The position numbers and the translations under genes were made by a program. Below are positions 18,828 through 64,000 of a stretch of DNA of 64,000 nt, one piece after another. The first letter of the stretch is position 1. Each line of letters starts with the position of its first letter. Source of the DNA: Polytrichum commune (Eukaryota; Streptophyta; Polytrichopsida; Polytrichales; Polytrichaceae); contig OX485803.1 in NCBI GenBank assembly GCA_950295325.1, positions 55,753,554-55,817,553 of the forward strand. The letters are read 5' to 3'. Below the pieces are notes generated by a model. That model was given only the letters and a program-made list of their open reading frames with translations. It did no database searches and was not told where the DNA came from.

Positions 18828-20775
18828 TCACATGCAAGGCTCACAATCCCACATGTCAAGCTTTTTCAAACATGTCAAGGTTCCAAATCCTCTTGGCACA
18901 TACTCTAAACCTCGACATTTTTAACAATCAAGTTCTTCCAAGCCTATTAGGTTGTTCAATCCAAGGAAACACTTGCAAAGCCTCACACTCCCACATTAAA
19001 AATTCTTTTAAAGATATCAACGTTTCAACTCCTTCCGGCACGTGTTTCAAAGCTTGGCATTTCAGAAGTTGGAGTTCCTCCAAGACTATGAGGTAGTTCC
19101 ATCTAGAGGGAAACACTTCCAAAGCCTCACACTCGCGCTCCTTAAGTTTCTTCAAACATGTCAACATTCCAAATCTTTCCGGCAAGTGTTTCAAACCTTG
19201 AATTTTTTAGCAATCAAGACCCTCCAAGTCTATGAGCTTGCTCAATCTAGAGCGAAACACTTCCAAAGCCTCACACTCCGACATAATAAGTTTTTTCAAA
19301 CACGTCAACGTTCGGAATCCTTCCGGCAAATGCTTCAAAGCTCGACATTTACAAAAATTGAGTTCTTCCAATGCTATGAGGTTGTTCAATCCAGAGGGAA
19401 ACACTTCCAAAGCCTCACACTCCGACATGTTAAGCTTTTTCAAACAAGTCAACGTTCCAAATCCTTCCGGCACGTGTTTCAAAGCTCGACACTTATGAAA
19501 AGAAAGTTCCTCCAAGGCTATAAGGTTGTTCAATCCAGAGGGAAACACTTCCAAAGCCTCACATCCCTGTATTAAAAGTTTTTTCAAACATGTTAACATT
19601 CCAAATCCTTCCGGCACGTGTTTCAAAGCTCGACATTCAGAAAAGTTGAGTTCCTCCAAGGCTATGAGGTAGCTCAATCCACAAGGAAACACTTCCAAGG
19701 CCTCACATCCCCACATGATAAGTTTTCTCAAACATGACAACATTCCAAATCCTTCGGGTATGTGTTTCAAAGCTGGACATTGATAAAACCAGAGTTCCTC
19801 CAAGGCTATAAGGTTCCTTAATCCAGAGAGAAACACTTCCAAAGCTTCGCATCCACACATGAAAAGTTTTTTCAAACAGGTCAACGTTCCAAATCCTTCC
19901 AAAACGTGTTTCAAAACTCGACATTTAGAAAACTCAAGTTCCTCCAAGGCAATGAGGTTGCTCAATCCACATGGAAACACTTCCAAAGCCTCACACTCCG
20001 CCATGATAAGCTTTTTCAAACATGTCAACATTCCAAATCCTTCCAACACGTGTTTCAAAGCTCGACATTCAGAAAACCATAGTTCCTCCAAGACAATAAG
20101 GTTATTCAATCCAGAGGGAAACTCTTCCAAAACCTCAGATCCGCACATGATAAGTTTTGTCAAACATGTTAACATTCTAAATCCTTCCGGCACGTGTTTC
20201 AAAGCTCGACATTCAGGAAACTCGAGTTCTTCCAAGCCTATGAGGCTGCTCAATCCAAAGGGAAATACTTCCAAAGCCTGACATCCCCACATGATAAGTT
20301 TTTTCAAACATGTTAACATTCCAAATCCTTCCGGCACGTGTTTCAAAGCTCTACATTCAAAAAAATTAAGTTCTTCCAAGGCTATGAGGTTGTTCACTCC
20401 AGAGGGAAACACTTCCAAAGCCTTACACTCCGACATGTTAAGTTTTTTCAAACATGTCAACATTCCAAAACCTTCCGCCATGTGTTTCAAAACTCGACAT
20501 TATGAGAAATCGAGTTCCTCCAAGGCTACGAGGTTGCTCAATCCCCAAGGAAACACTTCCAATGCCTCACAATCAACCATTTTAGAGTTGCTCCTCCCGC
20601 ACTCCATGTATGCCTTCCACGTTTGTGTCATGTCCTTTGTCAATCTCAAAGTCCCTCCCTCATGTGTGGAAAAACACTTGTCCCTCCCCCATGCAAAGTA
20701 AGGTGTCTTGTGATTGTGTCTTACACCGTCCAATACAAAACTCATGAGCGGGATCAATATGAAGGTTGGGATCAT
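18828..20775 (-). pseudogene. Leucine-rich-repeat gene made of 144-bp tandem units, broken
   Basis: From the ATG at 20775 a 5' segment of about 60 residues leads into an LRR array. The repeat unit is 48 residues and consists of two 24-residue LRRs of the form LTCLKKLxMxxCEALEVFP and LIALEELxFxxCRALKHVPE. I count about twelve units plus a partial one. Lesions seen are TAA at 20500-20502 (where other units have Glu), TAA at 19207-19209, a 2-bp deletion near 18961 relative to sibling units, and TAA at 18921-18923 in the restored frame. LRRs of this kind occur in plant NBS-LRR and LRR-only proteins and mediate recognition; no NB-ARC or TIR domain is visible upstream. The leading exons could lie elsewhere or be lost. 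Confidence 0.8.
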
Positions 20776-31515: not shown

Positions 31516-33366
31516 CTAGGGTGGCAGGCATCTTCCGCTGGACCTCTTATTCTTGGACGACCAGGCTTTTTTGACAATATTAACCTCAAAGTGTGCTTGT
31601 GCTATCAATGTGAACCCAAGCTCATCCCCAATCTCCAGAAGATTCTCCTCCACAAATGTGCCCCAACCAGCTTTGAAATGCACCGAGCACATGCTGTGAA
31701 AATAATATTTCACACACTGCACAGGCCATAACCCTCCTTTGGGTCCTCGTAGGCTGACTAGCCTGGGCAGAGTGAGCCGCGTGTGGCGCCCAAATCCAGC
31801 TGGAAGAATCTACATCCCAAACACAGATAGGTTCATATACCGTCACACTCTTACGAATGAAATTTAGTTACATTATTCAAGGTGATCAAATGTTGCCTCA
31901 CCCGACAAAATCGAGTGACAATCTGAGATTACCTCTAGGTGATAAGCAGGCTTTGGCAGTTTGGTGGCGTAATGCTAATTTCTGGAGGTGACAGATAGGA
32001 TTTTGTACAGGTCCTGACCAATAGCAAAACCATGTGTGGAGGTGAGAGATGGGATTCTGTAAAAGTCCCAACTAATAGAAAAACCAACATGTGGCCTTCG
32101 GCTCAAATTTTGAATTTAATTTGTGTTGAACCTGCTTATTATCACCTATGGGTGATGGTAAACTGGGAGGTCATGAATTCAAATCTCATGTAGGAAACAT
32201 ACCAGATGTGCACATAAATCGCTTCCAAAATGTTGTACGGCACTGCTGGCGAGTTGAATTTTGAATTGCACCACTTTATGAGTTGGAAGTTGATGATGCT
32301 GGATTCTCCTCTCTACCCTCTTCATCCACCTCATCATATTGCCATGCCCAAGATTTTCAACACTCTCAGTTTCTGCAGGAATATCCTGTTCTTGAGTGAC
32401 AACTCGCTCTTCCTGTGTTGAAAAGTCTGAGCTCGTGCAATTTGTAGATAATTTGCACACCATCAACTCATCATATCTTTCAAGATCATCTGCATGTGCG
32501 ATAACTTCTTCCGTACCTATATATTCTGCACTTTCCCCCAGGTGTAAGGTGTTTGGCAGGATCATCGAAGAAATAAGTTCAAGGCTTTTTGAAGGCCCAG
32601 TCTCACCAGGAAAATCCTGCTCCTGAACAACTCTAATTTCATCCTCTACTGAAAATTCTGAGCTCGTATAATTTGAAGATGTTTTGCACACCATCCATTC
32701 GTGTCTTTCATCTGCATGTGATGCCATCATGTCTTCTGTATCTAATTCTACACGCTTCCCGAGGTGTGAGGTGTTTGGTGGGAGCATTGAAGAAATGGGT
32801 AAATTGAGGCTTCTTGAAGGGGAATTAGGTGACTTGTCAATCACCTGAACATAGAAGGTCGAGACTGCGACGAGGTAGAACACAAGATGGTCATCTTTTT
32901 TGAAGCCATTGACGAAGGTGAACTCATCCCATCCATCTAAAAAGCTCACTCTCATCTGGCCATGTGACTTTGTTCGGATTTTCACCATGACGGTCATAAG
33001 TTGGCAGCTGGGTCCACGAAATCCATTCGTCATATGAAACTTGTCACCATGGGCTTGCACAAACTTGGCAGGAATCTCCTGAAACATCATCATGTCCAAA
33101 ATTTCCAAAAAAAGGTCAAATGATCCACAGAGTGAAGTAATTGATTAGAAACTCCTACTAAAAAAGTCTGCCAGGAATCAGCTCTGAATTAGTAGTCGAG
33201 AACACCAGTAACATATATATCTACACCCAAATTTCTTCACATGTAAATTCACGAGTCTTACCAGCTCGGCTTGACGTTGACTCTCAGAGCCAGGCCACAC
33301 CATTCTTTCCGTCAATATCTTTTGAAACGAAGGAGCTCTGGAAATGGACTCTCCCACACTCGCCAT
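31516..33366 (-). CDS. Two-domain B3 transcription factor (REM-like)
   Basis: A plant B3 DNA-binding protein of about 424 residues from three phase-0 exons: 33366-33262, 33078-32203 and 31809-31516. The first B3 domain is split by intron 1 (SFQKILTERMV... then EIPAKFVQAHG... and FLDGWDEFTFVNGFKKDDHLVFYLV). The second is split by intron 2 (FKIQLASSAVQHFGSDLC..., then ILPAGFGRH, SLRGPKGGLWPV, AGWGTFVEENLLEIGDELGF). The conserved intron position just before the IP motif is the same in both domains and in the neighbouring B3 genes. Between the domains, an acidic linker holds two tandem ~70-residue repeats, each running from SSM.LPNT.HLG through a Met-Val-Cys-Lys tetrad to an EQD.P.ET end. The start at 33366 is the first in-frame ATG. 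Confidence 0.85.
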
Positions 33367-38766: not shown

Positions 38767-39792
38767 ATGGAGGATTGTGAAGTGGAGGATTCGGAGCATA
38801 GGTGGTTTGAGACCAAGAGAAGCCTCCATAACGCCAAAGTTCCCTACTTCTTGAGAACTATTTCAGAGAAGCATATACGGCGGCCTGCATTAAGCAATGA
38901 CGTTCGCACCTTTGAAATGGTAATTAACCTTCAAAGTCTGATGGATGGCACGACTGTTCCTAACTTTCTTGCATGATGATATGAAGGTTAAACTTCCATT
39001 TCTTGATTCATTCTACATCATGAATTTCTTCTTATTTTTCTCTGCTTTGTTTTGATTTGTTTTGATTTTTGTTAATGTGTCCAGGACATCCCTGCAGCGT
39101 TTGTGCGTGACCATGGTGAACAGATGAAGCCATCCGCCACCATTCAAGCAGCTGGAGATGGAGATGGAGATGGCGGCCAAGTGTGGCCTGTGCAGATCCA
39201 CATTGTTGCCACTCCCTTTCGAGCCAGGGTGGGATTCAGCCGAGGATTTCACAAATTCCTCCTCACAAATGACTTGAATGTCGGTGACCAGCTCATCTTC
39301 TCCCTGCCTGCCATGTCCAAGTTTGTGGTCTACATTTTCAAGTTGCACAAGATTAAAGCAGGCAGACGCTCCATGGCTCCTGCAACACCAAGTAGTTCCT
39401 GCACTCCTTCCAAGAAAGAGTGGATGCCATTTGAGGACATGGCCGAGACCATCTTCCCTGCTCACCACTATCATCATTCTATGAAGGTTGAACCGGGATG
39501 TGAGGTCAATGACCTCGATGCAAAAAGAGGCACAGAGATGATGTCAAAGAATATTAAAGACAAGATCAGAGTCAAAGGAGAATACAGCTGGAGCGTGAAT
39601 AGGCAGATTGTTGATGAGGAACCTGAAAGTGAGGAGGAAGAGGAGGAGCAGAAGGAAGAGGAAGGAGAGATTCGTTCCTCACAAATATCGTTCCGGAAAG
39701 TGGTGTCCGCATCATCTGCAAGTGGAAAACATGGGACTCCTGTTTGTTTCTCACGCCTGGTAACAAGCATCGCGGATCCGTTAAATTGTTAA
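38767..39792 (+). CDS. Single B3-domain protein (REM-like)
   Basis: Two phase-0 exons, 38767-38919 and 39085-39792, encode 286 residues. The B3 domain begins with VPYFLRTISEKHI in exon 1. After the intron it continues as DIPAAFVRDHGEQM, WPVQIHIVATPFRARVGF, GFHKFLLTNDLNVGDQLIF and FVVYIFK. A Gly-Asp tract (GDGDGDGG) is inserted in the loop before WPV. The rest is a Ser/Pro and Glu-rich tail with an acidic run (ESEEEEEEQKEEEGE). B3 domains of this type bind DNA in the nucleus. The start is the first in-frame ATG; the upstream bases contain an in-frame open stretch but no ATG. The intron site matches the other B3 genes in the cluster. Confidence 0.8.
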
Positions 39793-40025: not shown

Positions 40026-40227
40026 TTCTTTCTTAGAGTGCAACTTACGTTGCCTCTGAGGGATTAAACGGAAAAGTAAAAAATTTCTTCCTCTGTGCCA
40101 TCACCGATTCCTCTTCATGCATTAAGTTTGTTGTCATGAGGACGAAATATGACCAGTTTTCCCCGAAGGAAACATTCCATATCCTCCTGGTTACTCTGTC
40201 TGTTCTGACATCCTGGTCATTCCTGTG

Positions 40228-41172
40228 ATGATGCAATTCCAGGAGCTTCCAATTGAGTTCGTTCGATGCTACGTCGGGAAGTACGTAGAATCGGATGCAG
40301 AATACACGCTCGAAGTTAGCCCAACAGGTCGTACATGGCAAGTGGACTGCCAACGAACCGCAGGAGGTCGAATCCACTTCACCTATGGGTGGAACGAGTT
40401 TGCAACTGCAAATCAGCTGAAACCAGGTGAAGGTCTCATCTTCACCCTCGCTTCGCCTCGACGTTTCGTAGTCCAGATTTTGCAGCTGGATCAGCCGAGG
40501 GGGCGATCAGAGGAAGAAGCTGAGGAGTCTACTAAGGCCTGGCACAAGAGAAAGTCTAGAGTCTATGATGATGATGATGATGATGATGAATTCGACTTCC
40601 AGGTGAAGAAGCCTCATCATGTGACAATGAAACGTGATGACAGATGTCGCAGTGAATCTCCTAAAAGTGAGGATCGACCGGTTGGGTCTTTGAAGAATAG
40701 TAATAGGAGAATGTCTGATCTGGTGCAACAATGGGCTCGAAATCGAATAGCCAGGTTGAAAGCTGGCAGGGTGGACCCGTATGAAGATCGACAACATGAT
40801 GAGAAGAGGAGCAGTGAAGAAGAAGAAGAAGAAGAGCGTTCTTTCATCAAGAAACTCCCTGATTCCAGCTCTTCCAAGTGCTCTCCATACCCATTTGTGG
40901 TAAATTTGCCAATCTATCTCTCAACTTCCTCTGATGATTTTTTAAAGTCATTCAATCCCATTGTTATCTATCGTCGGGCAAAGCCTTCTCTCATCTTTCA
41001 TGATTCAACTTGCAGAGCTTGCCAAGAAGAATCTCACCAAGTGTATACTTTTCAAGATGCTTATTTACGGGGAACACCTACTACACCACTTAAGAATGCT
41101 ATGGCATTACAGTTATTCTTGAAGTATCTTGGAGAAAATATATTCGGTGAGATTCTTTCTGGCAAGTTGTAG
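40228..41172 (+). CDS. B3-domain protein, possibly lacking its first exon
   Basis: The open frame from the ATG at 40228 encodes 314 residues. A splice-acceptor-like CAG ends at 40242, right before ELPIEFVRCYVG, which is exactly the conserved B3 intron site. The true gene may therefore begin in an upstream exon, for which a coding-like stretch about 40035-40186 (KNFFLCAITDSSSC) is a candidate. The B3 core continues WQVDCQRTAGGRIHF, YGWNEFATANQLKPGEGLIF and FVVQIL. After it come a seven-Asp run from a GAT microsatellite, basic and acidic low-complexity stretches, and an unrecognised last ~90 residues. A GTAAAT donor-like site at about 40900 makes the C-terminal part uncertain. Confidence 0.65.
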   Translation: MMQFQELPIEFVRCYVGKYVESDAEYTLEVSPTGRTWQVDCQRTAGGRIHFTYGWNEFATANQLKPGEGLIFTLASPRRFVVQILQLDQPRGRSEEEAEESTKAWHKRKSRVYDDDDDDDEFDFQVKKPHHVTMKRDDRCRSESPKSEDRPVGSLKNSNRRMSDLVQQWARNRIARLKAGRVDPYEDRQHDEKRSSEEEEEEERSFIKKLPDSSSSKCSPYPFVVNLPIYLSTSSDDFLKSFNPIVIYRRAKPSLIFHDSTCRACQEESHQVYTFQDAYLRGTPTTPLKNAMALQLFLKYLGENIFGEILSGKL

Positions 41173-43904: not shown

Positions 43905-44462
43905 CTACAGTAGCGTCATCTGACCATCTGACCGTTTGCATGCAACATTGTGAATTGCATCTAGAGCATCAATACTAGGGTTGGCACCCAAATTCAATTC
44001 TCCGTCACTCAACACGGTTCGGATGCTTCGGCAATCATATTGCAACACGACCTTCCAACCAACCTCTTCCTCATTGTCATGAAAGAAAACTTGTTGAACA
44101 TGCAGAGGGAACACATATGGTTGTGTCATTGCATGTTGCCTTCTCCGAAAATTAGCCATCCAAAAACCAAATTTGTCTCTTTTAATGGCCACACAACCAT
44201 TCACATCAAGAGGGACCCATGATCCCCTAAAAACCACCAAAGGCAAGTTCCCATATCTAACCTCCAAAATTTCATGTAGTACCCCTACGTACGACAAAGT
44301 CCCTTCCCGGATATTTTGATTTGCTACACTTGCCCTAGAACCCTGCTCACATATCATTGCAATGCCACTATCATATGTAGCAAACCCCCTTGTTGTATCA
44401 TTAGTTGTTGCTCTGTAATGACAACCATATGCAAAGCATGATTGATATACAATGACGTCCAT
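43905..44462 (-). CDS. CACTA DUF4216-like protein segment
   Basis: The 185-residue frame from the ATG at 44462 shows the DUF4216-type pattern: CFAYGCHYRATTNDTT, YDSGIAMICEQGSRAS, LSYVGVLHEILEVRYGNLPL, KRDKFGFWMANF, then YVFPLHVQQVFFHDNEEEVGWK and VVLQYD. It is the C-terminal portion of the CACTA transposase polyprotein whose other pieces follow to 47.6 kb. In active elements this would be one protein or joined by splicing with the upstream parts. Paralogous to the ORF at 17354-18184 and shorter at both ends. Confidence 0.7.
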   Translation of the reverse strand: MDVIVYQSCFAYGCHYRATTNDTTRGFATYDSGIAMICEQGSRASVANQNIREGTLSYVGVLHEILEVRYGNLPLVVFRGSWVPLDVNGCVAIKRDKFGFWMANFRRRQHAMTQPYVFPLHVQQVFFHDNEEEVGWKVVLQYDCRSIRTVLSDGELNLGANPSIDALDAIHNVACKRSDGQMTLL

Positions 44463-44473
44463 GGTAGGAGGGT

Positions 44474-44545
44474 ATAATGTATAATGGAGCGGAAGAATGT
44501 ATACATGTATAATGGATACATGTATACATGTATAATGGAGCGGTA
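44474..44545. repeat. Short tandem repeat of ATACATGTATAATGGA
   Basis: The phrase TATACATGTATAATGGA recurs three times with short spacers, between the DUF4216 and DUF4218 pieces of the CACTA element. Confidence 0.85.
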
Positions 44546-44609
44546 GAAGCTAAATTTGTTACCACATGTAGATGTATGGATGCCACCTCTTGCTGCGACA
44601 ATCTTCGCT

Positions 44610-47219
44610 TCAATCCCTTCCCTTCACACACCACCTTTCTTCCTCATCCCATATCTTGCGTCGAGTGTGGCCGAAATCACGCATATACTCCGTGTAGAGC
44701 CCTGGAGCTTCGTCCACCAAATACCCTTCCGCCATACAACCCTGTGGCAGAGCTTTATTCCGCACATATTTTTTTAGAACTCCAAGATAGCATTCAGTCG
44801 GGTACATCCATCGGGCAAACATAGGTCCACATTCAAATAACTCATCTACGAGATGGATAACTAAGTGGGACATTATATCCCAAAATGAGGGGGGGAACCA
44901 AGCTTCTAAAATGCAAAGAGTCTCCGCACAATATTGTTTTAGCCACAGTCTTTCCCCATGATTAACCACTTTTGCACAAAGTTTTTGGAACACAACACAA
45001 AGACGAATGATACCCGCTCGAGCAGCTGGATGCAGTAAGTGCCTAACAACTACATGCAAGATTTGTTAACAAAGTACGTGTATGTCATGGGACTTGAGGG
45101 ATTGCAATTTCCTCTTCACTACATGTTTTTTCAAGGCGGCAGAATAACTTGTGGGTACCTTTATGTTGGAGATGCAATTCATGAACTTCGTTTTCTCCTC
45201 CTCGCTAAACACATAAGGTGCGTGAGGCTTGAACATGCTCCCATTAGGCAGGTCACCTTTGTTTTGGAACCCTCAACTCCCGCATATCTTCACGCATTGC
45301 CGTTGTGTCTTTGTCGCCAAGAATTGTCTTCAATACATTGTCGATGATGTTTCTTTCAACATGCATTACATCTAAAGTGTGGTGGATTAGCAAATGTTGC
45401 AAGACACCCTTCCCCATTCCCAATAAGTACACAACGTATTCTATGCATGCCATAGTGCATTACTATAACATACAACATATGCATGGTGCCAATATTGGAT
45501 ATGATGATAGGGCCTTTGCCATGAAATACCTCCCAGTACGGGAGGTCAAACAACACCGACCGTCGTTTGCCATATATGCGAACGGGATCAGCACGAGCCG
45601 GTCTTCCACCATATGTTACAAATGTATCCCGGGCTACCACCCATATTAGAATATATATATGTTGCCTTCATTTTCCTTGGGGCCTCCCCATGCTCTGCAC
45701 AATAATGAAAAGCAGCAATAGCTTCCTTAAAAGGATGATTACCAGGCAACCACCATCTATGTTGCGCATCGTACATAGTTTTCCACAATTCCGCGCTTTG
45801 TCAAGTTGTAGTATGTGGCCCGCAGTGAGTGCATGCAAGGTAACCTTTTGTGATTGCACCAGATATGAGACCAAGCCCGGGGAAATATGTTATGGTGCGT
45901 ATTAACAAAGTATTCATCATGAACCACTCTTGTGAAAGTCTCTTCAAACAATCCCGGGTCCACACCCCTATTCTCCATAATTCAAGCAACTCGTCCAAAA
46001 CAGGAGCAAGGTATACATCAAAATTTTCTGATGGAGGTGCCGTGGGACCGGATATGATGAGAGTGAGCAATATGAAGAACTTCTTTGTCGCCAACCAAGG
46101 GGGCAAGTTCAAAATCATAACCATGATTGGCCATGTTGACCATGTACAAGATCTTTGAGCAAAAGGGTTAATACCATCTATGGCTAGCATCAACCTTAAG
46201 TTTTGAGGATCAGCAGCAAAGTCTGGCCATGTATTATTCACATGCACCCACATTGGGGAATCAGTTGCGCACCTTATCAATCCGTCCTTCACGCGCTCAT
46301 CCTCGTGCCAAGTCAACATCTTTGCAAGATCAGGGCTGCCAAACATCCTCCTTAGTCTTGGTATAAGCGAAAAATGATGGAGAACACGGCGAGGTTTAAT
46401 TGATCTACCTCTTCTGTAATACATGTGCGCCCCACACATGGGACATGACAATTCCTTCCCCAAGGGTCCCATGAATAGTGCACATCCGTTGGGACATGCG
46501 TGGATGATATTATAAGAAAACCCAAGACTCTTCAAAATGGAGGTGGCCTCCCTCTCAGTGTTTGGGCAATTGTTGAATTGTGGTAGAATGATTTTGCTAA
46601 GTAGACCAAGGAGCTCATTGACAAAGGTATTTGCAGCTCCATGGCCCTTTAGACATGTTAGTAGGACAAGGGTTAGCCCTAGAATGGACAGGGTGGAGTC
46701 TTGGAACAATGGGACTTTGTCTGCCTCATGCATGGCAGTTGTCATGCAATCATCCTTGTTTACCCCCTCAAAACCTTTGGCACAAGTAGGAAAATCCCAT
46801 GGCCATGTTTTTAGTTCATCAATCCCCACATTGACACCTAGAGGGTCTTTGTCACAAACCCCTTCGTTGTCCTCTTCATTCCCCTCTGGAAATTCCACAA
46901 GTGCATCCTGGTATTCTTCGTCATCGTCAAGGTCCCCAATTTTTTCCCTTGGATTGCCAAACCCTCCATGATCAAGCTCCTCCATGTTCTCGCCTTCGGG
47001 ATGTTTTGCCCTTCTGAAAGCATTGACAACCAAGTCATGCATGTCCAAGTTTGTGTCCAATGCAACTGAAACTCGCAGGTTGTCTAAACTTGGCACTAGA
47101 ATATTCCCACCAATTTCTGCAAGACATGACCTAATTCTATGTTCTTCGGCAACCCACTCCTCATCGTCAAAATCCTCACACAGTGCTTGCCATGAATGAC
47201 AATTTCCATGTGAATCCAT
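44610..47219 (-). pseudogene. CACTA (EnSpm) transposase: Tnp2 and DUF4218 domains, decayed
   Basis: Reading down the minus strand, the pieces appear in canonical CACTA order. From 47219 comes a long frame of about 470 residues with the Tnp2 core: SLGFSYNIIHACPNGC, then LSCPMCGAHMYYRR, MLTWHEDE, ADPQNLRLMLAIDGINPF, NLPPWLATKKFFIL and FDVYLAPVLDELLELW. The reading then shifts frame several times between about 45.98 and 45.25 kb (WWLPGNHPF, VLFDLPYWEV, HHTLDVMHVERNI). It continues as NIKVPTSYSAALKKHV and LKSHDIHVLC, ending at an in-frame TAA at 45066-45068. It resumes with the DUF4218 block FPPSFWDIMSHLVIHLVDEL and RWMYPTECYLGVLKKYVRN. Multiple frameshifts and stops mean no functional transposase. 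Confidence 0.85.
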
Positions 47220-47306
47220 TCTGACATTTTTGAATCATTCATTATACAAAAGAGGCAAAGCACATGAATTGAAGTAATGCAACAAACTAAAAATGCACAA
47301 AAAAAA

Positions 47307-52098: not shown

Positions 52099-52172
52099 AA
52101 TTGAAGCGCGGGATCACGACTTAGAGTCCTAGAACTAAGCGAAGCTAGAAGGAGATCTTGGAGGTTTCAACG

Positions 52173-53993
52173 ATGGCGGCCGCTAAACGTTCAAAAAAGG
52201 GCGAAAATGAGTTGCAACGAGAAGACGATCGAGAAGACTTAGCACCGGGAGTCGAAATTGCGACTCAAGGTGAAGAGGGCAGGCCGAGCAAGAAAGTTCG
52301 GGCCACCCGCAAGAAGAAAATTCTTAAGGGTGAAAAAACCGCAAGTCAACTCCGAGAGGAGTTGAACTTAGAGCCAATTGCCGTTGAGACCAACCCGGAG
52401 CCGGGTGAGGTCAATCAAGATATGACGGAGTTGGAGCAACCCAACGTACCGCTCGTCGTGAGCGATGAGTTGACTCCGACGGGTCCGAAAGTGACTCGGA
52501 CCGAAAAGGACCTAGACGAAGTGAAACACGGTCAAACACCGGTTGCGAGGCTTAAGGATGAGGTCAAAGAGATAAGGACGGTAATGACCAACCTTATAGA
52601 CCAAAACCACTTATTGATGGAATTCTTTAAGAGCACGCGAAGTGCTTCGTCGGATGGACCTCGGCCCACGGACATGAAAAACGTGCCTAAACTAATGACG
52701 TGGGATACGAGAGACAAAAGAAACATAGAGGCATTTCTTACCGAGTACGAAGCGTACTGTGACGCCTCGGGCTACATTGGCGACGAGGTGCGAGTAAGGA
52801 GTTTTGGGTCATTTCTTAAGGATGGCGCATCCATTGCCTTTGCGGCTTGGAAGGGCTCGCGCGGCAAGGACCTTCCGTGGGATGCGCTAAAGGAATGGGC
52901 GGTGGATGCGTGGCGAAAGCCGCATCAGCATCTACTCGACGTCACGGCGCTAGGCGCTATGAAGTGGGGGAGTTATCAAAACCTCTCACGGTACGCCGAA
53001 GAATATAAGGCGAAGTTCTTGCAGTTGGACTGCGAGAAGAATCCGCAGTTGGGGATGATGGGATCATTCCTAGCTAGCCTAGACGAAAACATTCGTCGTA
53101 AAGTGTGGGAGAGGGAAAACCTCCCCACCACGATGATGGAACTACTTGACGTAGTTATTCGTCTAGGTGACGCGAGGGGGGTTAGCCGCCCCGAAATTCC
53201 GAATGGTAAGCGGCCGTTCGAAAGGAGTTTCGGGGGTGGAAAGCATAAATTTCCAAAACGGAAATATGAGGCTAAGGAAGAAGGCGACGGAGGATCGGTT
53301 GGGAAACCAACCACCCCGAAAGGTTACGTCAAGCGGGCGAAGCGAGTCAACCCGAAAGACGCAACTAAAAAAAGCCTTTGTTTCAAATGCGGGAAAGCAG
53401 GCCACATGTCGAGGGAGTGCCGTAAAGGTGGGGGCAGAAAGGTAGAGTTGAACTCTACCACGATTGCGCCACCCGAAAGGCAAGCCGATTGGCCGCCCGC
53501 ACTCTCAATCAAAGAGAGTGTGTTTAAGCGGGGGCACCGGGTGTTCGAGAGCTTAAGTCGTAGATTGCTAGTAGTCGAAGGTGGCTTCGAAGCAACTCCC
53601 TCGTTGGTTAGTCCGACGAAGAAAGATTTAGTCTATTTGAAAGGCCAAGTAAACGGGACTAACGTTTCTATGTTGATTGATACATGGACCTCAAATTCCT
53701 TCATAACGCCGAGGTGCGCCGAGAGGTTGAAGGTGGAGGTGACGGACACGGCCTTACCCGTGAAGATCAACTTTGCGCAAGGATCCTGTCAAGCAGCGCA
53801 AGTTGCTAAAGGAGTGCGATTCAAAGCGGGTGGAGCGAAGTTCGACGAGGATTTTACGATTTGCGGACTAGGGGGCGTAGATGTAGTGTTAGGAAATACG
53901 TTCCTACACTACTATGGAGTGGAGGTTAGGCAAAGGCCTAGCATTCACGTAGTAATGGTAGGTTCGGATGGAAACCGAAGCCGCTACCATTGA
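52173..53993 (+). CDS. Ty3/gypsy-like gag-protease polyprotein
   Basis: Starting at the first ATG after the PBS, the ORF encodes 606 residues. Residues about 1-130 are charged. A retrotransposon gag domain follows (MTWDTRDKRNIEAFLTEYEA, SRYAEEYKAKFLQLD, SFLASLDENIRRKVW). A CCHC zinc knuckle lies at residues 403-416 (CFKCGKAGHMSREC). A retropepsin-like aspartic protease follows around residues 490-600 with LIDTWTSNSFI and a later DVVLGNTFLHYYG. The catalytic motif is D503-T504-W505, where the family has D-S/T-G, so the protease is probably dead. The stop falls near the end of the protease. Gag packages RNA and the protease would mature the polyprotein in the cytoplasm. Confidence 0.88.
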   Translation: MAAAKRSKKGENELQREDDREDLAPGVEIATQGEEGRPSKKVRATRKKKILKGEKTASQLREELNLEPIAVETNPEPGEVNQDMTELEQPNVPLVVSDELTPTGPKVTRTEKDLDEVKHGQTPVARLKDEVKEIRTVMTNLIDQNHLLMEFFKSTRSASSDGPRPTDMKNVPKLMTWDTRDKRNIEAFLTEYEAYCDASGYIGDEVRVRSFGSFLKDGASIAFAAWKGSRGKDLPWDALKEWAVDAWRKPHQHLLDVTALGAMKWGSYQNLSRYAEEYKAKFLQLDCEKNPQLGMMGSFLASLDENIRRKVWERENLPTTMMELLDVVIRLGDARGVSRPEIPNGKRPFERSFGGGKHKFPKRKYEAKEEGDGGSVGKPTTPKGYVKRAKRVNPKDATKKSLCFKCGKAGHMSRECRKGGGRKVELNSTTIAPPERQADWPPALSIKESVFKRGHRVFESLSRRLLVVEGGFEATPSLVSPTKKDLVYLKGQVNGTNVSMLIDTWTSNSFITPRCAERLKVEVTDTALPVKINFAQGSCQAAQVAKGVRFKAGGAKFDEDFTICGLGGVDVVLGNTFLHYYGVEVRQRPSIHVVMVGSDGNRSRYH

Positions 53994-54170
53994 CTAGACT
54001 AGCGGGGCTAGATGGACTAGGAATAAATCTAGTCACGAAAGAGGCCCTCTTTGAGGAGCAATTTGTATTGATCTTAAACAAGAACTTTCTCGATAATAAT
54101 GCAAAGGGATTGCTCCCGCGGGAAAAGCTATTTTGCGAGCGGTGAGCGGTGAGCGGTAAGTTTTCTAGAA
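53994..54170 (+). pseudogene. Short continuation of the retroelement in another frame
   Basis: Directly after the gag-pro stop, coding-like sequence continues in the -1 frame (LTRLAGLDGLGINLVTKEAL, EEQFVLILNKNFL) and ends at a stop near 54142. No reverse transcriptase, RNase H or integrase follows. The element is truncated by the junction with the tandem array beginning at 54313. Confidence 0.5.
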
Positions 54171-54312
54171 TATTGAAATTTTATGTGGTGAAACATGCCC
54201 TATGACCGCGGTGTAGAGCTAACTTTTGAAATATTTATTGACAAATTTATTGACAAAAAGAACCTATAACCGTGGTTGAGGAACCTAAACTGTATTTGCT
54301 TGCACCTTCGCT

Positions 54313-54812
54313 TATAAGGTTTGTAGGTTGGGAATGGGTTTCGGATGGTTACAGGTTGTCATTTGAGGTGCACTAAGTCCCACTTGGAGAACGCCTCGGA
54401 TCCGAGGCCTCATGGCTGCGGTATCATTTCAGATTGGGTATAAGGTTTGTAGATTGGGAATGGGTCTCGGATGGTTACAGGTTGTCATTTGAGGTGGACT
54501 AAGTCCCACTTGGAGAACGCCTCGGATCCGAGGCCTAATGGCTGCGGTATCATTTCAGATTGGGTATAAGGTTTGTAGGTTGGGAATGGGTCTCGGATGG
54601 TTACAGGTTGTCATTTGAGGTGGATTAAGTCCCACTGGGAGAAGGCCTCGGATCTGAGGCCTCATGGCTGTGGTATCATTTCAGATTGGGTATAAGGTTT
54701 GTAGGTTGGGAATGGGTCTGGGATGGTTACAGGTTGTCATTTGAGGTGGATGAAGTCCCACTGGGAGAAGGCCTCGGACCCAAGGCCTCATGGCTTGAGT
54801 CCCTAAATTTTG
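54313..54812 (+). repeat. 126-bp tandem repeat, about four units, with GC palindrome
   Basis: The phrase TATAAGGTTTGTAGGTTGGG begins units at 54313, 54439, 54565 and 54691, a constant 126-bp step. Each unit carries a CTCGG-N2-CCGAG type palindrome (54395-54406, 54521-54532 exact; 54647 and 54773 with changes). A further related, degraded palindrome follows near 54884. Confidence 0.92.
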
Positions 54813-54929
54813 ATTGTGTTTAAAGTTGGTGGTTTCTGGGTGGGTCTCGGCATTTCAAGTGGAGGGGCTACTTTGCAGAAGGCTTCGGATCCGAGGTCTG
54901 TTGGCCTTGGGGTTTGCTGTTTGATTTGA

Positions 54930-55320
54930 GGTCAAGTTTATGGTTTCAGATTGAATGTAGGCATGCCATGTTTGGGTTTCATGTTTAGCTACATTCAACC
55001 TGACTCCATAAATTTGAAATCGAATCATTGGTTTCAATTTGGGTCTCGACATGCCCAATGGCTTAGATTTCATGTTCGGTCTCGGCATGGCCACTTTGGA
55101 CAAGGCCTAGGGGTTTTATGTTTAGGGTGAATTAAAGTTTATGGTTTCCGGTTGAATGTGGGCATGCCATGTTTGGGTTTCATGCTTAGCTACATTCAAC
55201 CTGACTTCATAAATTTGACATCAAATCATTGGTTTCAGGTTGAGTCTCGGCATGCCAAGTGGTTCAGATTTCATGTGGGAGTGACCACTTTGGATATGGC
55301 CTCGGATTTCTTGGGGTTTG
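54930..55320 (+). repeat. 192-bp tandem repeat, two units
   Basis: CATGCCATGTTTGGGTTTCATG occurs at about 54962 and 55154, followed in each by TAGCTACATTCAACCTGACT and TCATTGGTTTCA. The sequence shares TCTCGGCATG words with the adjoining 126-bp array. Confidence 0.88.
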
Positions 55321-55835
55321 ATGTTTGATTTGAACAAAAAACATAGGATGATGTCCATATTTTATGCACAAGCCTTTTTTGGGTTATTCCATTCTTCTTC
55401 CATTCTATCTTCTGATTTTTTTATTCTTCCATTCTTCTTCCAGTCTATCTTTTTATTTTTTGTAATTCTAAAAAACGTATTGATATTCTATACTTATCAT
55501 CTTTAATTTTTTGGTTTAGTTTTTTGGTTTAGTTTTCCTTAGTCTTTGTTTCATGTTTTGATCTATATTTTTACAACTACATTTCTTTATCTTTTTTGGG
55601 TTTTGTTTTGAATTTTGTTACATGGATGATGCTATGGTGGATAATGAGGTAGTTTACCTCTATGTCTTGTTGAATAATAGAGTGCAAGGAGGGTTTAGGG
55701 TAAGAGTGTAAGAAGGCATTACAAAATATAATTCACTGTCTAAGGAAAACCATGAAGATTACCGCACTAAACGGATAATTAACAATCAAATGCAAAAATA
55801 TATTATTATGCAAGCAATAAGACACAAAATTCTAC
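55321..55835. other. T-rich spacer
   Basis: Contains a TTCCATTCTTCTTCCA phrase repeated around 55388-55445 and a TTTTTTGGTTTAG duplication near 55508. No gene. Confidence 0.5.
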
Positions 55836-58743
55836 CTAAGACATATAATCAAAATCACAATTATCAGATAATGCTACAGAGACTTTAGAATCTGTACTAT
55901 TTGCATCTGAAGAGCCTTCATCCTCAGACTCAACAGCTTCTAAATCAACATACTCTATACCGCTTAGCATCAACTCCTTAGGTCTAAATGTACGATATGA
56001 ACCTTCCGCTAATTCATTGGCAACGTCATTTGCGTATGAAGGGAGCCGCCATGACTTTGGAGGGCTTGGATAGAACTTAGGGTCACAAAAAAAAGGGCGG
56101 TGACTAGGGTATCTCAAATTACCGCTTCTGCAAATGCAAATGGCAACATGGTCATAAAACCGCCTCATATGAAAGCAAATAAGAAAATATATCACTAGTA
56201 GTAGAAATAGTAGCTATACTCATTTACTAAACCTTGACTTCTTCACGATCTTCTGAACAACAATGATTTCGCTATCTGGATCCTCTGACATGACAATGTC
56301 TCTTGATTTCACTTTTATGGCCGAAGCAGATCGAATTAGAGGAGCGATCAAGGCTTCAAAAATTGCCTTGTCAGCCTCTAATGCCGCAATGTGACGGTTC
56401 ACATTGCGGCACGCATGAATAGAAACTCTTGCAAAATAAGAAAACAATGAAGTTCAGTTCTCAAACAACATAAAAATTAATTAACATGAAATGGTCAACG
56501 GTTATTTACTTAAACATGAAGAGATGTTCAACGTACCCGTAGCTGTAGAGCAGTCTAGAACAATATCCCCGGGTGAAGAAGATGCCTGAATGAGCATCTG
56601 TATAAGGGCGAGGGATTTTTCGCGAGGACCACGCCAAGGGGTGGATCCATCCATTAACTGATCCTCCCTTGACACCAAGTTCTGGAGGATGTCATCCCGT
56701 GCCACATCAACCCCGTGACGGTCTAGTGCAGGGATGTGTTGAAAGCAAAATCTGGAAGCACGCACCTCCGGAATGCTCCTCACAACTAAAGTTATTCCAA
56801 ACCTCATGGTCTGCATATTACAAAAATAGTTAATTACTTTACTTACGAAATAAGATAAAAATCATTAAGCACATTCCAACAAATGAAATGGAAGATTAGT
56901 TTCACAAGATTAATAACATAAGATACAGCTATCAATCAAATTAGCAATAAGTCATATCATAAAATAAACTCATAGTCAAGACTGGATTAATTGGGGACGT
57001 CAGGTGAAGCTTGTTCATCCCCCACCACTCCTTGCGAACAGCAAATCCATACGTTGAACAGTACCCAAGAATGATTGACTTTGTAGACATTCGAAAAGGA
57101 TGGAACAAAATTATCGCCCCATCGTCTTGGAGGTGATGGTTTGCGAAATCAAAGATTGTTTGAAACCAATCCTCAGGTTCTATGTTTTAGGCGGGAATAG
57201 ACGAAGGTGGATTCGAAATTCCTGGAACAGGAAGGCCCTCTGGAAGATCTGCAAGAATCAAGTCCACACAGGGTACTTCCGCAGCAGATCCCTTGTAGCG
57301 TCGGCCTTTGTCACTTGAGTGTTGCGCATGAAAATAAATTTATCAAAACTCTGACAAAAAAATCAAAGACTGCACACATTCTAACTTGACACCGTTCTGA
57401 ATTAATGTGAATCAATTACTTGACTTCGAGATCAAATACATGAGAAGGAGATGTGTATGTAATGAAATCGCATATAACATACAAAAACAGATAGAAGTCA
57501 ACGACTTAAGCAAGTGCTGAAGTTTTCATACAATGAAAATTAACAAAGAAATGTGTTGGATGTCATTGTAATGAGAATGATGACCTACGAATGATTGAAA
57601 GAAACTTGAGAACTCATTCATGGGACTCCGCAGCTTGAGAATTAGAATTGGATGAAAACATAAACAAAGCAAAGTTGTTGAGCAGTATGGTACCTTAGAA
57701 ATGAAGCTCTTTAACTCGTCATATAATGGACTCAAGCTGCCCGTGTCGCCACCAAGGACTTGCTCTAGTGAGAAGTTTTTAATCCACTCCCCAACTTGGC
57801 CATCATTCTCCTCAACCGATGTGAAAACAGGGATTCCTTGGCTTAACTGCTCATAGGAGGAATCGCGTTTGGTTCCTCTAGACTGAATTGGAGCATGAGA
57901 ACCAGAGTCATATGTAGGACTAGGCGCAGGTGGGCTCTTACATTCTGGCTCTGGAGGGGGGTTCATCTTCTTCTTCCCCCTCTAGTTAGTCTTCTCCAGA
58001 GAGTTGTGGAGTTTTGCCATCTCTTTCTGGGCCGCTTTCTCCTCATCTTCCTTCACCTTAAGCGCTTTCTTCCTATCTTCTTCTAGACGTCGCGAGAGGG
58101 CCTTTGCCCTCTCGTGCTCGTCTTCAATGCCCTGTAAATCAACCATCTCAACACCAGACTCTCCAACTGCATCCCTTGACTTCCTAAGTTCAGTTTCAAA
58201 GGAGGGAGTGAAACTAGGAGCACAGTCGAGGTACCATCCACCTCCTGTGAGATGCGAGGTAGACCACGTCCGCTGCTGATTTGCTGAGAACATGCACGTT
58301 GAGTTCGACCTGTCAAGCCATGTAGAGAGAAATATTGGGAGATCTTCTTTTGTTATTGCTCCTTTTGCAAGGAGCTCGTACTTGAAATACCTGCGGGTTA
58401 AAAAAAACCTCATCATTATATACCTTGCAATCAAAATACATGTCATGTGAACAACCAAATCAATAAGACAAATATAAGAATTCTAGTTGGAGAAGGATAA
58501 ATCTTACCGAAAGAGTACTTTTCTCACAATCAAGTCAGTTCCGTTGAAGCCCTCAAATTCGTGAGTTTTGTTAAAAACATCCTGCCCTCGGAAGAAGGTG
58601 GGGAATGCATTGTCCCATAACTTCATTCTACAATCCTCGATGTATGCAACCAAGGATAAGGGCTCGCTGGGTACTTCAAAGTTGATAACCAGTCTATCTT
58701 GATGCACTGTTTCTTCGTAGATAATAGAAGTCTGGTTGGATAT
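55836..58743 (-). pseudogene. Methyltransferase-like gene (permuted motif order), decayed
   Basis: Six exon-like segments can be read: 58743-58508, 58390-57694, about 57318-56983, 56810-56537, about 56428-56233 and 56127-55836. The first part holds a charged coiled-coil-like stretch (RRLEEDRKKALKVKEDEEKA). The core resembles Rossmann-fold DNA methyltransferases. VDLILADLPEGLPVPG occupies the place of the catalytic D/N-P-P-Y motif IV. Then come DDGAIILFHPFR and RKEWWGMNKLHLTSPINP, then EKSLALIQMLI and GDIVLDCSTATG (motif I), then CRNVNRHIAALEADKAIFEA. Motif IV preceding motif I is the beta-class arrangement. The catalytic Pro-Pro pair is absent. Lesions are TAG at 57982-57984, an apparent 1-bp deletion near 57268, and TAA at 57187-57189. 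Upstream exons may be missing. Confidence 0.65.
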
Positions 58744-58809
58744 CTGTGGAAAGAAAATATAATAGAAGCTCCCCGAATTCAAATAAGCGCACATATGCAC
58801 AATTCAGCT

Positions 58810-61165
58810 GAGGCCTAATCACAACCTGAGTAACATTTAGCCTAAACTAAATTCAAAATCAAATTTGATTTCAGGCCTAATCACAACCATTCCAATATCT
58901 AATCCAAACTCACATGACACTCAGATCAGATTCAGGCCTAATCACAACCATAGCAACATCTAACCTTACCTCACTTCACACTCACATCAGATTCAGGCCT
59001 AATCACAAGCAGCCCAAATTGTAACCTAACTCACTTCACTCTCAATACAGCCCACTTTAGACCCCCCTCTAGGAAGTCTCTGTACCGAGACACACTGATG
59101 AGAATAATGTTGAGTTTCAAAAATCTTATTTCAGGCCTAATCACAACCTAAGCAACATATATCCCAACCTCACTTCACACTTAAATCAGATTCAAGCCTT
59201 ATCACAACCTTATCAACTTCTAATCTTAACTCACTTCACACTGAATTTAGATTTCAGGCATAATCACAAGCTAAGCAACATATATCCCAAACTTACTTCA
59301 CACTTAGATCTGAGTCAAGCCTAATCACAACCATAGCAACATCTAACCCAATTGATTTCACACTGAATTTAGCCCACTTAAGACCCTTGTCTAGGGTGTC
59401 TCGGGACCGAGACACACTATTTTGAACAAATGTGACTCTCAGAAATTTGATTTCAGGCCTTATATCAGCCTTACCAACTTCACACTTAAATCAGATTTCA
59501 AGCCTAATCACATTATTACCAACATCCAATTCAAACTCACTTCACACTTAAGGTTGATTTCAGGCCTAACAAAAACCTTAACAACATCCTACCAAAATTG
59601 ATTTCACACATAAGTCTGCCCAGTTAAGACCTTGTCTAGGGTGTCTCGGGACCGAGACACACTTAAGCAACATTCAGGCCTAATCACAACCTTATCAACT
59701 TCTATACTTAACTCACTTGACACTGAAATCATAATCATAAGCTTAGCAACATCTAACCTAACTGACTTCACACTTAGATCAGATTCAAGTCTAATCAAAA
59801 CCTTATCAACTTCTAATCTTCACTCACTTCACACTGAATTCAGCCCACTTAAGACCCTTGTCTAGGGTGTCTCGGGACCGAGACACGCTTTTTTGATCAA
59901 AGCTAACTTTCAGATATTTGATTTCAGGCCTTATATCAGCCTTACCAACTTCACACTTAAATCAGATTTCAAGCCTAATCACATTATTACCAACATCCAA
60001 TTCAAACTCACTTCACACTTAAGGTTGATTTCAGGCCTAACAAAAACCTTACCAACATCCTACCCCAACTGATTTCACACATAATTCAGCCCAGTTAAGA
60101 CCTTGTCCAGGGTGTCTCGGGACCGAGACACACTATTTTGAACAATTCAGATTTCAGGCCTAAACACAACCTAAGCAACATATAACCCAAACTCACTTCA
60201 CACTTAAATCAGATTCAGGCCTAATCACAACCTAAGCAACATATAACCCAAAGTCACTTCACACTTAAATCAAATACAGGCCTAATCACAACCTAAGCAA
60301 CATATAACCCAAACTCACTTCACACTTAAATCAGATTCAGGCCTAATCACAACCTTATCAACTTCTAACCTTAACTCACTTGACACTAAAATCTGATTTT
60401 GGGCATAACCATAAGCTTAGCAACATCTAACCCAACTGACTTCACACTTAGATCAGATTCAACCTAATCACAACCATAGCAACATCTAACCCAATTGATT
60501 TCACACTCAATTCATCCCACTTAAGACCCTTGTCGGGACCTAGACACACTTAAGCAACATTCAGGCCTAATCACAACCTTAGCAACTTCTAACCTTAACT
60601 CACTTGACACTGAAATCATAATCATAAGCTTAGCAACATCTCACCCAACTGACTTCACACTTAGATCAGATTCAAGCCTAATCACAACCTTATCAACTTC
60701 TAATCTTAACTCACTTCACACTGAATTCATCCCACTTAAGACCCTTGTCTAGGGTGTCTCGGGACCGAGACACACTTTTTTGAACAAAGCTAACTTTCAG
60801 AAATTTGATTTCAGGCCTTACATCAGCCTTACCAACTTCACACTTAAATCAGATTTCAAGCCTAATCACATTATTACTTACCATCTAATTCAAACTCACT
60901 TCACACTTAAGGTTGATTTCAGGCCTAACAAAAACCTTAACAACATCCTACCAAAACTGATTTCACACATAATTCAGCCCAAGTTAAGACCTTGTCTAGG
61001 GTGTCTCGGGACCGAGACACACTTAAGCAACATTCAGGCCTAATCACAACCTTATCAACTTATAACCTTAACTCACTTGACACTGAAATCATAATCATAA
61101 GCTTAGCAACATCTAACCCAACTGATTTCACACTCACATCAGATTCAGGCCTAATCACAACCTTA
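58810..61165 (+). repeat. Satellite-like array (~60-bp monomers, ~245-bp higher-order units) with 20-bp palindromes
   Basis: The monomer reads roughly TTCAGGCCTAATCACAACCT followed by a CAACATCTAACC...CTCACTTCACAC half. About forty copies are visible over 2.35 kb. A GTGTCTCGGGACCGAGACAC block recurs exactly at 59396, 59641, 59867, 60112, 60754 and 61001, with degraded versions near 59074 and 60524. Most intervals are 226-247 bp, defining a higher-order unit. The array separates the methyltransferase-like pseudogene from the DUF7869-like gene. Confidence 0.93.
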
Positions 61166-61821
61166 ACACTATATTCGTTAATTGGAGACTTTGGAAAGTC
61201 TCAAAATAAATTGGACCCGTAGTTTCGGATGCGAATATTGTGAACGTAGGGAACATGGGGAACAATGGCAACATAATGTTCGAAAGATCCATATGTGATG
61301 AATATATATGTTTCTAAATATAGTAATTATTTGGGGGATAATCAAAACTACGCCAACACAATATTCCAATGTCACAAATTCACAATTATTTTGTATTTTT
61401 GATTTTGTATTGAACAAAATTAACAAATCTATAAATAGCCATCTGATTTTATATCTAGGGACTCTTGGATGCGTATCCCAAACATAACATCTTAGCCAAT
61501 TGTGGGTGAATTGAACGGCACATCCCAAACGCAACAATATTAAAATAATTTGACAGTGTGTATAAGAAATTGCAAATTAGCATCTGCAATATAATTATAT
61601 AGTTTGGACTCCACATCCGTAAACACAAACATATAAAAAACATTTGATAGCGCATGTAAAGTTGGATTCCACATCCGTAAATCAATACAATCATGATATA
61701 TAATTGTAATCTATAAAATTGCTATAAAATGTGTCTAATATAGTATTCGACCCCAATGTCATATATTTCATGAAAAACCAAGACACATTTCAAATAATTG
61801 TGGTCCAATCCTACGTCAATA
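61166..61821. other. AT-rich 3' flank of the DUF7869-like gene
   Basis: No gene. Contains two copies of a TCCACATCCGTAAA phrase (about 61609 and 61668). Confidence 0.5.
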
Positions 61822-64000
61822 TCATTCTCCATCTTCATCTTCAGCTTCATTTCCATTCTCGACATCGTTTTCTGCAGCAACAATACGTGCCAAATTGTCT
61901 TTGGCAAAATCTATATGTTTTTGGGGGATGGTCATTGTCTCTGATTTGGAATCTTTGCGTGGTTTCCAAGCACAAAGTATGGTATCTGTGTTTATCCATA
62001 TTGGTTCGTATGCTGAGTCCATTGTCCATTTGAAACCTTTTTTGGTGTCCCACCCTAAATATCTGCGGAGCACATTTTGATCTTTGGTGCTGGGACGGCA
62101 ATATTCCACCTCAATTTGATGAAAATTTGGGCTAGTTGGAACAAAATTTGGTGATGACAATGCTTTTACCAACCAAATCGGTTTAGGGTGCTCCTCATCT
62201 CTAGGACGTACGAGGATCATATACCCTTCGTAGCAATCAACAGCCACACGAAATGATGGAGCCGGACGATTACGAGCTGGGCCAACATAATGGTCGTCCG
62301 CTGCGAACTCTTCACGAATGTCCCCATTGTCGAAGAACATGGCCTCAGATTCCACGATTGTCACTCGACTTTGTGGCCAAAAATCTTGTGTCAAACATGA
62401 ATGTGTTTCGACATCGGGTGCTAGCAATGCTGAGCGAATGTGATCCCAGTACGTAATCAATGGTTCGTGGGTATCCCGAACACGCCTTGTGATGTCTTCC
62501 TCGCACAATTCTTTCCAATATTGGATGAATCCGGATATACCTTTGATGATTTCTGGTCCATTCCTCATGGGGTTGGGTTTGCAAGGCTTCGGCTCCCCAT
62601 CAGGTAGCATACATTTGCCCTCTTCGTTTTGGCGCCAGATGAGTATCCCTTCCTCTGGACCCCAATCTGGGGAAGTGCACAAAACTTTGAATTGCATGGC
62701 CGGCAGACCATCATCACGCATATAGAATCGGAATTGTTGAGCCTTGGTATGGCCCACTAAGCGGTCACCTCCCTTAAGAATGAATGGTTCGATAAACGAT
62801 TTGAAATCGGGCACTTCTTCAATCAAATGCGGGATGACTGGCACATTATCCAAATCCATGTATGATTTCATGAGAAGAGGAATCGTCGGAAAATCCTCCT
62901 CGTGCAACTTCATACTCCAACGTCCAAATGAAGCGTCAATGTCATCATGCGTGTGGCCAACCATCAAAAAAGACACAAACACTTCTTTGAAAATGTCCTT
63001 GGCTACGAGCAATGACCAAAAACAAAACACGTATCGACATTTGTTGTCTTTGGCACAATTGTCCAGTTGCACATGTAGAGTTGGAGGCAAAGGTTTAGCA
63101 AGAACGGTTTGTTCAGGCGGTTCTTGCAGTGACGATAGACATACTTCTTTCCCCTCTAGTACAGCCTCATAAATCGGTGTTGTTCCACATCCAACAAAAA
63201 AAGCGCGAGAGGATGATGTTGGCGGACTCTCAAGATCTCGTAGAGGTTTTGCAAAAGACCCTACGATATGATTGGCGTCGCCTGGATAGAAATCCAAGCC
63301 ATAATGTGCATACTTGACGTCCACATGGTCATGTGCAATCATACCTGAATTAAGACATACAAATGAGAAGTACATTCCAATATTATATATGATAAGGAAA
63401 TTCAATTTTTTCGCAAGTAGGCCAAGAAAATGAACAAACACTTACGGACGTACATCCGTAACTCTTAACGATGAGTATGTGGGTGCGCAAAAAAAATGTG
63501 AAAACCAACGAACCTGTGACAGATATTGGGAGCTTGAAATATCCATCTGTAGCCTTTATTTTCCGTGCATAACAAGGGCACGCAGTCTTCGCATGGTCCA
63601 TTTTGTCATGAATAATTGTCAAAACCTCATTCGGCCTCATTATCGATAATGCGCGATTCTTGTAGTAGTCTTGACGGTGTGCCTCCTGGTTGTTGACATG
63701 CTCAATGTATTTCCGTTGATGTCTATTGTGCGACTCAGTCCTTATTGGATGTGCATCTCGAAGGCCCTTATATTTCTCACAAGCAGAACACCTAGCAAAC
63801 TTATCCCCAGGCCTCTTCGTAATGTACTCTGCAAATTGTTGATTCTTGATCACACTCAATTTTGACAACGAAATCAGCCCACATCCAGCCTTTTCGCCAA
63901 CCTCATTAACATCCATAAGTATGTTCTTCCATTTTGTCCCTGTAGGCAAAACCATATGGACAACCTTTTCCCCCGACGGCAGAGTCCGTGTCTTGTGTGG
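61822..64000 (-). CDS. DUF7869-like protein, 5' end beyond the window
   Basis: Two exons are visible, 63344-61822 and 64000-63514; the second is open to the window edge, so upstream codons are missing. Over 650 residues are read. N-terminal part: a Cys/His-containing segment (FARCSACEKYK), then LRPNEVLTIIHDKMDHAKTA-like text (here MRPNEVLTIIHDKMDHAKTA), GYFKLPISVTG. After the intron: YAHYGLDFYPGDANHIVGSF, LHVQLDNCAKDNKCRY, VFCFWSLLVA, then VSFLMVGHTHDDIDASFGRW and SMKLHEEDFPTIPLLMKSYM, then a C-terminal half ending in an acidic tail. I associate this with the uncharacterised DUF7869 family, common in lower plants and some animals and often considered transposon-derived. The D in QLDNC and the HTHDDID segment are plausible active-site residues. 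No lesions. The family name is from memory and less certain than the motifs. Confidence 0.7.

Follow-up and report, generated by a model that had tools for sequence, protein, structure and literature searches.

A decayed plant gene with a permuted DNA amino-methyltransferase-like domain and altered motifs IV and I

Introduction

On the minus strand of the 64-kb stretch of DNA analysed here, referred to throughout as the window, lies a methyltransferase-like gene that is both real and dead, and whose fold and motif order were correctly recognised in an initial annotation. The gene is best explained, with a probability of roughly 0.88, as a decayed plant nuclear gene in which the core domain derives from a beta-class DNA amino-methyltransferase of bacteria or phages, most likely one of the DLPYG sub-type. 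Eukaryotes rarely have amino-methyltransferases of the bacterial type, and it is through reports on Marchantia sperm and on bdelloid rotifers that 4mC has been brought into eukaryotic epigenetics (PMC8566409, PMC8885841). What, then, is the interest of a broken copy? A plant gene of this type, with sizeable additions to the domain and a modified active site, would be evidence either of a further capture or of a turn towards a non-catalytic protein that binds DNA or SAM, and its importance, moderate at present, would become high only if the altered site were common to intact plant relatives. As the evidence comes from one dead copy, the present worth of the gene is as a probe with which to search plant genomes.

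Gene structure and lesions

The reading of open frames and splice sites across the window gives six exons, which extend from 58743 to 55836 on the minus strand and are separated by five GT-AG introns:

Exon A, 58743-58508, minus strand: N-terminal region with no assigned fold; an open frame with a GT donor, the phase of which (2) fits exon B
Exon B, 58390-57694, minus strand: N-terminal region with a charged stretch that appears coiled-coil-like by eye; carries a TAG
Exon C, 57350-56983, minus strand: the half of the methyltransferase domain that contains motif IV, KADATRDLLRKYP ... VDLILADLPEG ... DDGAIILFHPFR
Exon D, 56810-56537, minus strand: variable middle part, then motif X (PREKSLALIQMLIQ) and motif I (PGDIVLDCSTAT)
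Exon E, 56425-56233, minus strand: remainder of the SAM-binding half (HACRNVNRHIAALEAD)
Exon F, 56163-55836, minus strand: C-terminal tail with no assigned fold, closed by its own TAG stop

The introns are 69 to 343 bases in length, and the GC content of the five lies between 0.25 and 0.34, as against 0.41-0.51 for the six exons. The splice phases are consistent at all five junctions (A-B, B-C, C-D, D-E and E-F), the frame break being inside exon C, and five matching phases make a chance run of open frames unlikely. The multi-exon structure that the initial annotation described is confirmed, and the peptides that it quoted are all found on the minus strand where it had placed them. Exon A is preceded by what looks like a good acceptor (TTTCTTTCCACAG) and so may not be the first exon, although no exon further 5' was identified. 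Beyond the methyltransferase domain the gene has extra regions, about 310 residues at the N-terminus and about 110 in a C-terminal tail. A Pfam search with exons A and B gave nothing convincing (Ssr4, EDR2_C and DUF4407 at E-values of 0.11-0.19, the best for A and B joined being 0.19), a PDB search with part of exon B likewise gave no convincing match (E 0.18 or worse), and exon F had no match in Pfam.

Three lesions break the coding sequence:

Lesion 1, 57984-57982, minus strand: in-frame TAG in exon B
Lesion 2, within 57267-57339, minus strand: frame break in exon C somewhere between ..ADATRDLLRKYP and VDLILADLPEG
Lesion 3, 57189-57187, minus strand: in-frame TAA in exon C

With two stops and one frame break the copy is a pseudogene and makes no whole protein, in agreement with the earlier description of a dead copy with at least three lesions. 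Could the lesions instead be spliced around? The stretches that would have to be skipped have a GC content of 0.48, 0.39 (for the frame break) and 0.46, values that are similar to those of the exons and higher than those of the introns, and the ends of these stretches are without a pyrimidine tract. On these two grounds splicing around the lesions was rejected and all three are taken as real, with the frame break, given the 0.39 of its skippable stretch, as the least certain of them. At the D-E junction the acceptor (CAAGAG) makes motif I one residue shorter than it is in the relatives, which may represent a fourth lesion.

Homology of the methyltransferase domain

The open reading frame that holds exon D matches the Pfam family PF01555 (N6_N4_Mtase) with an E-value of 1.7e-4, and exons C-F joined match the same family at E 2.5e-5 and 24.8 bits, which is below the curated cut-off of 26.7, over a region that spans the D-E junction. 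In a phmmer search of the PDB, exons C-F find the DpnA-like 5hfj (E 3.3e-6, 29.1 bits) and 5hek (E 3.6e-6), together with weak matches to CcrM (6pbd, E 0.13, 14.1 bits) and MboIIA (1g60, E 0.43, 12.3 bits). Beta-class enzymes occupy the top four of the eight PDB matches with exons C-F and the top four of the seven with the exon D reading frame, and the best PDB score rises from 20.2 bits with the latter to 29.1 with the joined exons, in a match that crosses the D-E junction. Against NCBIfam, exons C-F give CcrM at E 5.4e-4, with 19 bits against a cut-off of 830. Pfam lists no MT-A70 match for exons C-F, with most matches weaker than about E 0.1 removed from that list, and DLPE stands in the plant copy in place of DPPW.

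A tblastn search of phage records returns 139 matches at E-values up to 1. The top-listed of these, the DNA methylase of Leptospira phage LE1, which itself matches PF01555 over positions 1-220, gives one unbroken alignment over 94% of the 282-residue query (24.8% identity, E 1e-3), and the methylases of an Enterococcus and a Sinorhizobium phage give one-piece alignments over 74% and 76% of the query. All three alignments, at 24-25% identity and E 1e-3 to 1e-2, pass through motif IV, then the variable middle and lastly motif I, and it is on these that the permuted order rests. Both the order of exons C and D and the single phage alignments place motif IV (VDLILADLPEG) before motif I (GDIVLDCSTAT), and the earlier claim of a permuted amino-methyltransferase-like protein is upheld by the PF01555, PDB and phage matches.

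Sharing of short peptides with the exon D reading frame picked out 45 viral and 294 prokaryotic stretches, of which 18 and 146, respectively, encode a relative. The 18 viral proteins all hold PGDIVLDC, an identity that arises by selection since their loci were found with exon D peptides, and scans of viral contigs with six short peptides from each of exons A, C and F found no relative. In the reverse direction, exon D is the best place in the window for every one of the 18 viral and three phage proteins, all of which had been picked using the methyltransferase-like gene itself. With the three phage proteins the motif IV place, at about 57267, reaches only E 0.34 to 1.4, and with one of them three places in the leucine-rich repeat region outscore it.

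How strong is this signal when compared with chance? Exons C-E score 36.6 bits with a profile of the 18 viral proteins and 33.0 bits with a profile of 104 DLPYG proteins, and none of 1000 shuffles comes near to these values (637 and 397 of them scored, with the best at 5.5 and 3.3 bits). For exon C alone the 18-protein profile gives 7.6 bits, a score that is reached by none of 2000 shuffles (1518 scored, best 7.0 bits). As judged from these sequence comparisons, it is the SAM-binding half that carries most of the homology signal. When the two halves are swapped as a control, the scores are 40.3 bits (18-protein profile) and 33.0 bits (DLPYG profile), better than or equal to those in the native order, so that profile scores carry no information on motif order. 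The placing within the DLPYG sub-type is not clear-cut, given 33.0 bits for that profile against 36.6 for one that is mostly DPPY and that was picked by exon D peptides. An early alignment of exon D with the viral proteins was dropped, as its invariant columns suggested that the start of exon D had been set against motif IV.

The resemblance might in principle be fortuitous, with an unrelated plant gene happening to contain a few methyltransferase-like peptides, and both the PF01555 score under its cut-off and the weakness of the motif IV half would be in keeping with this. Such a coincidence is, however, scarcely credible in view of separate matches in the PDB, Pfam and phages and of profile scores that the shuffles do not approach.

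The catalytic and SAM-binding motifs

If the domain does descend from a beta-class amino-methyltransferase, as we prefer to read it, what has become of its catalytic centre? The altered motif is located as follows:

DLPE codons, 57249-57238, minus strand: altered motif IV, which is DLPY in the three top-listed phage relatives

The initial annotation regarded DLPE as a replacement of the D/N-P-P-Y signature. That the motif is altered stands, but DLP is already present in the DLPYG enzymes of phages: the three top-listed phage relatives read VDLILSDLPYG, VDMILADLPYG and VDMILADLPYG, so that the leucine is a normal variant and within motif IV only the change from tyrosine to glutamate, which takes two or more base substitutions in the same codon, is odd. 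The 18 viral relatives, in which the aromatic residue is that of proteins found by a search for this motif, have DPPY in 13 cases, DPPF in 3, SPPY in 1 and DLPY in 1. The plant copy therefore departs from (D/N/S)-(P/L)-P-(aromatic), having glutamate at a position that is tyrosine or phenylalanine in the 18 viral and three phage relatives. Viral contigs were also scanned with the back-translated motif, where a methyltransferase is defined by a match to the 18-protein profile at E 1e-5 or better. The pattern D..L.DLPYG has at least 122 occurrences in at least 120 stretches, and 120 of the 122 occurrences listed lie in methyltransferases. The pattern D..L.DLPEG is found in five stretches, none of them in a methyltransferase, and glutamate is thus no common natural variant in viral contigs.

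Motif I is degenerate as well, which goes beyond the initial annotation. After VLD the plant copy has STAT in place of the glycine-containing xGSG or xGAG of its relatives, and the first glycine of the motif, which is invariant in the 104 DLPYG proteins, is a threonine. Across the 72 columns that are at least 75% conserved in those proteins the plant copy keeps 26, including D33, D38, L39, P40 and G42 of motif IV and K191, D212, R228 and E234 (plant numbering), and loses 46 (3 gaps, 1 X); as the 104 proteins were picked by motif IV, the letters of that motif are invariant by selection.

SAM binding involves the glycines of motif I. The aromatic residue of the catalytic motif is described as stacking on the flipped base (PMC5023411). 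From the replacement of both, the stacking aromatic by glutamate and the glycines of motif I, we infer a lack of catalysis in this copy, which probably methylates nothing. The ancestor would have been a DNA amino-methyltransferase acquired from bacteria or phages. It would have bound SAM through motifs I and X, and D-(L/P)-P-Y would have held a flipped adenine or cytosine while the exocyclic amino group of that base was methylated. The present copy would have no hold on the flipped base, and its binding of SAM would be poor or absent.

A related question is whether these motifs changed before or after the gene was broken. The living plant family may be catalytic, with DLPY or a similar motif, such that the glutamate and the changes in motif I reflect decay after the death of this copy, a reading that we place a little short of even odds. 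It is consistent with the two stops and the frame break that the copy carries, and with the aromatic residue at this place in all 18 viral and three phage relatives, but it has to allow for two or more base changes in the tyrosine codon while the flanking VDLILADLP-G has remained intact. Tentatively, and with odds that are clearly against it, the plant family could be a true pseudo-enzyme, in which both the change of tyrosine to glutamate and the disappearance of glycines from motif I predate the breakage and the intact relatives are non-catalytic. Here the argument is that both catalytic motifs are changed with the neighbouring core kept (VDLILADLP, GAIIL, PGDIVLD, and the R and E), that none of the five viral DLPEG occurrences is a methyltransferase, and that METTL14, with EPPL beside the DPPW of METTL3, offers a reported precedent (PMC5023411). 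The basis for it, though, is one dead copy, in which the loss of 46 of 72 conserved columns is explicable by plain drift.

Comparison with known enzymes

Within the DLPYG sub-type, the enzymes of Leptospira phage LE1 (AGS80478.1) and Sinorhizobium phage Susan (ATS92114.1) have motif IV followed by motif I, as does the plant copy. The DLPYG phage enzymes and the plant copy have in common VD(L/M)ILxDLPxG, GA(I/V)(I/V)L, the lysine of motif X, VLD, and the R and E of the following strand, whereas the plant copy differs from them in having glutamate for tyrosine and replaced motif I glycines, in being longer at both ends, in having introns and in being broken. The best solved-structure matches, 5hfj/5hek, 6pbd and 1g60, have the same SAM-binding half but are distant, and all are named methyltransferases, unlike the plant copy, which is without both catalytic signatures.

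A bacterial-type amino-methyltransferase in a plant has its precedent in MpDN4MT1a/b of Marchantia. The 4mC of Marchantia sperm is reported to be made by these two proteins (PMC8566409), and the N4-cytosine methyltransferase of Marchantia is described as being of bacterial origin and as having no added terminal domains (PMC8885841). By description, MpDN4MT1a/b resemble the present gene as plant-encoded amino-methyltransferases that came from bacteria, and they are reported to be active and essential (PMC8566409, PMC8885841). The N4CMT of bdelloid rotifers resembles the plant copy as a eukaryotic, permuted PF01555 enzyme with introns, but is reported to be active and to have a chromodomain, and is said in that account to be without eukaryotic homologues (PMC8885841). 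With METTL14 the likeness is in an altered catalytic motif (EPPL) that is without the aromatic residue (PMC5023411); this protein belongs to a different family, MT-A70. In literature searches, for which coverage of subscription journals and preprints is thin, the terms DUF7869 and DN4MT1 had no occurrence, and no title described a bacterial-type plant gene in which the domain has long additions and the active site is altered.

Genomic neighbourhood

The window is most likely plant DNA, a reading that is based on its B3 domains, its Transposase_21/DUF4218/DUF4216 transposon genes and its RPS2-type leucine-rich repeats. B3 is a plant domain. The features closest to the methyltransferase-like gene are:

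DUF7869 (PF25273) open reading frame, 61822-63441, minus strand: Pfam E 1.5e-38; upstream of the methyltransferase-like gene and on the same strand
Repeat array 1, 58811-61170, no strand: units of about 61 bp and 245 bp; six exact CTCGGGACCGAG palindromes; end after 60730 set by eye
Repeat array 2, 54313-55330, no strand: 126-bp units to 54795, then more diverged, with the end set by eye; two exact CTCGGATCCGAG palindromes

The residues DN...GHTHDDID of the DUF7869 reading frame may correspond to those of an RNase H-like transposase. A single-sequence structure of this frame was too poor for use (mean pLDDT 33), and a scan of viral contigs with six short peptides from it found no relative. The arrays are tandem repeats of unrelated sequence that lie to either side of the methyltransferase-like gene. 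The palindrome CTCGGNNCCGAG is present eight times in the window (6 + 2 exact copies) against an expectation of 0.01, and as the copies are tandem these count as two independent occurrences. The idea that the arrays are inverted copies of each other was discarded, with an inverted score of 25.0 against a shuffle mean of 24.8, and their direct comparison scores 29.0, which equals the best of 100 shuffles. Among the pairs found at 54000-64000 there were no long terminal inverted repeats, and an element could run past 64000.

A mobile element common to the methyltransferase-like gene, the DUF7869 frame and the arrays is possible. In one form of this idea, which we consider unlikely, the methyltransferase-like and DUF7869 genes are the cargo of a DNA transposon and the palindromic arrays bind proteins of the element. 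The DUF7869 frame does adjoin on the same strand, both arrays carry the same palindrome and the window has other transposon genes; set against this are the failure to find long terminal inverted repeats at 54000-64000 (the end of the element may lie outside the window), two arrays that are unlike in either orientation, palindromes that are tandem copies with two independent occurrences only, and the viral scan in which the DUF7869 frame gave no relative. A more elaborate scheme, in which a non-catalytic LADLPEG family in some plants would travel as cargo of a DUF7869 element, bind DNA, possibly the adjoining palindromic arrays, and shield the element from silencing, is a long shot.

Elsewhere in the window, no Rfam family reaches its gathering score and no tRNA is found. 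An LTR retrotransposon gag-protease reading frame, with a zinc knuckle and an aspartyl protease, lies at 52149-53993 on the plus strand, and since a repeat array starts about 320 bases downstream there is no pol directly after it. CACTA-type transposon genes, with matches to Transposase_21, DUF4218 and DUF4216 (the two DUF4216 matches falling below the Pfam cut-off), are located at 43905-47234 on the minus strand and 17348-18184 on the plus strand. Three reading frames with B3 domains occur within 9 kb, at 32179-33144 (minus), 39076-39792 (plus) and 40153-41172 (plus), two of them just below the Pfam cut-off. At 19207-20499 on the minus strand an open frame of 430 residues carries leucine-rich repeats that are similar to one another and resemble those in RPS2-type disease-resistance proteins of plants. 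Finally, a RED_C match (E 1.7e-9) at 557-922 on the plus strand is presumably part of a RED/SMU2-like splicing-factor gene.
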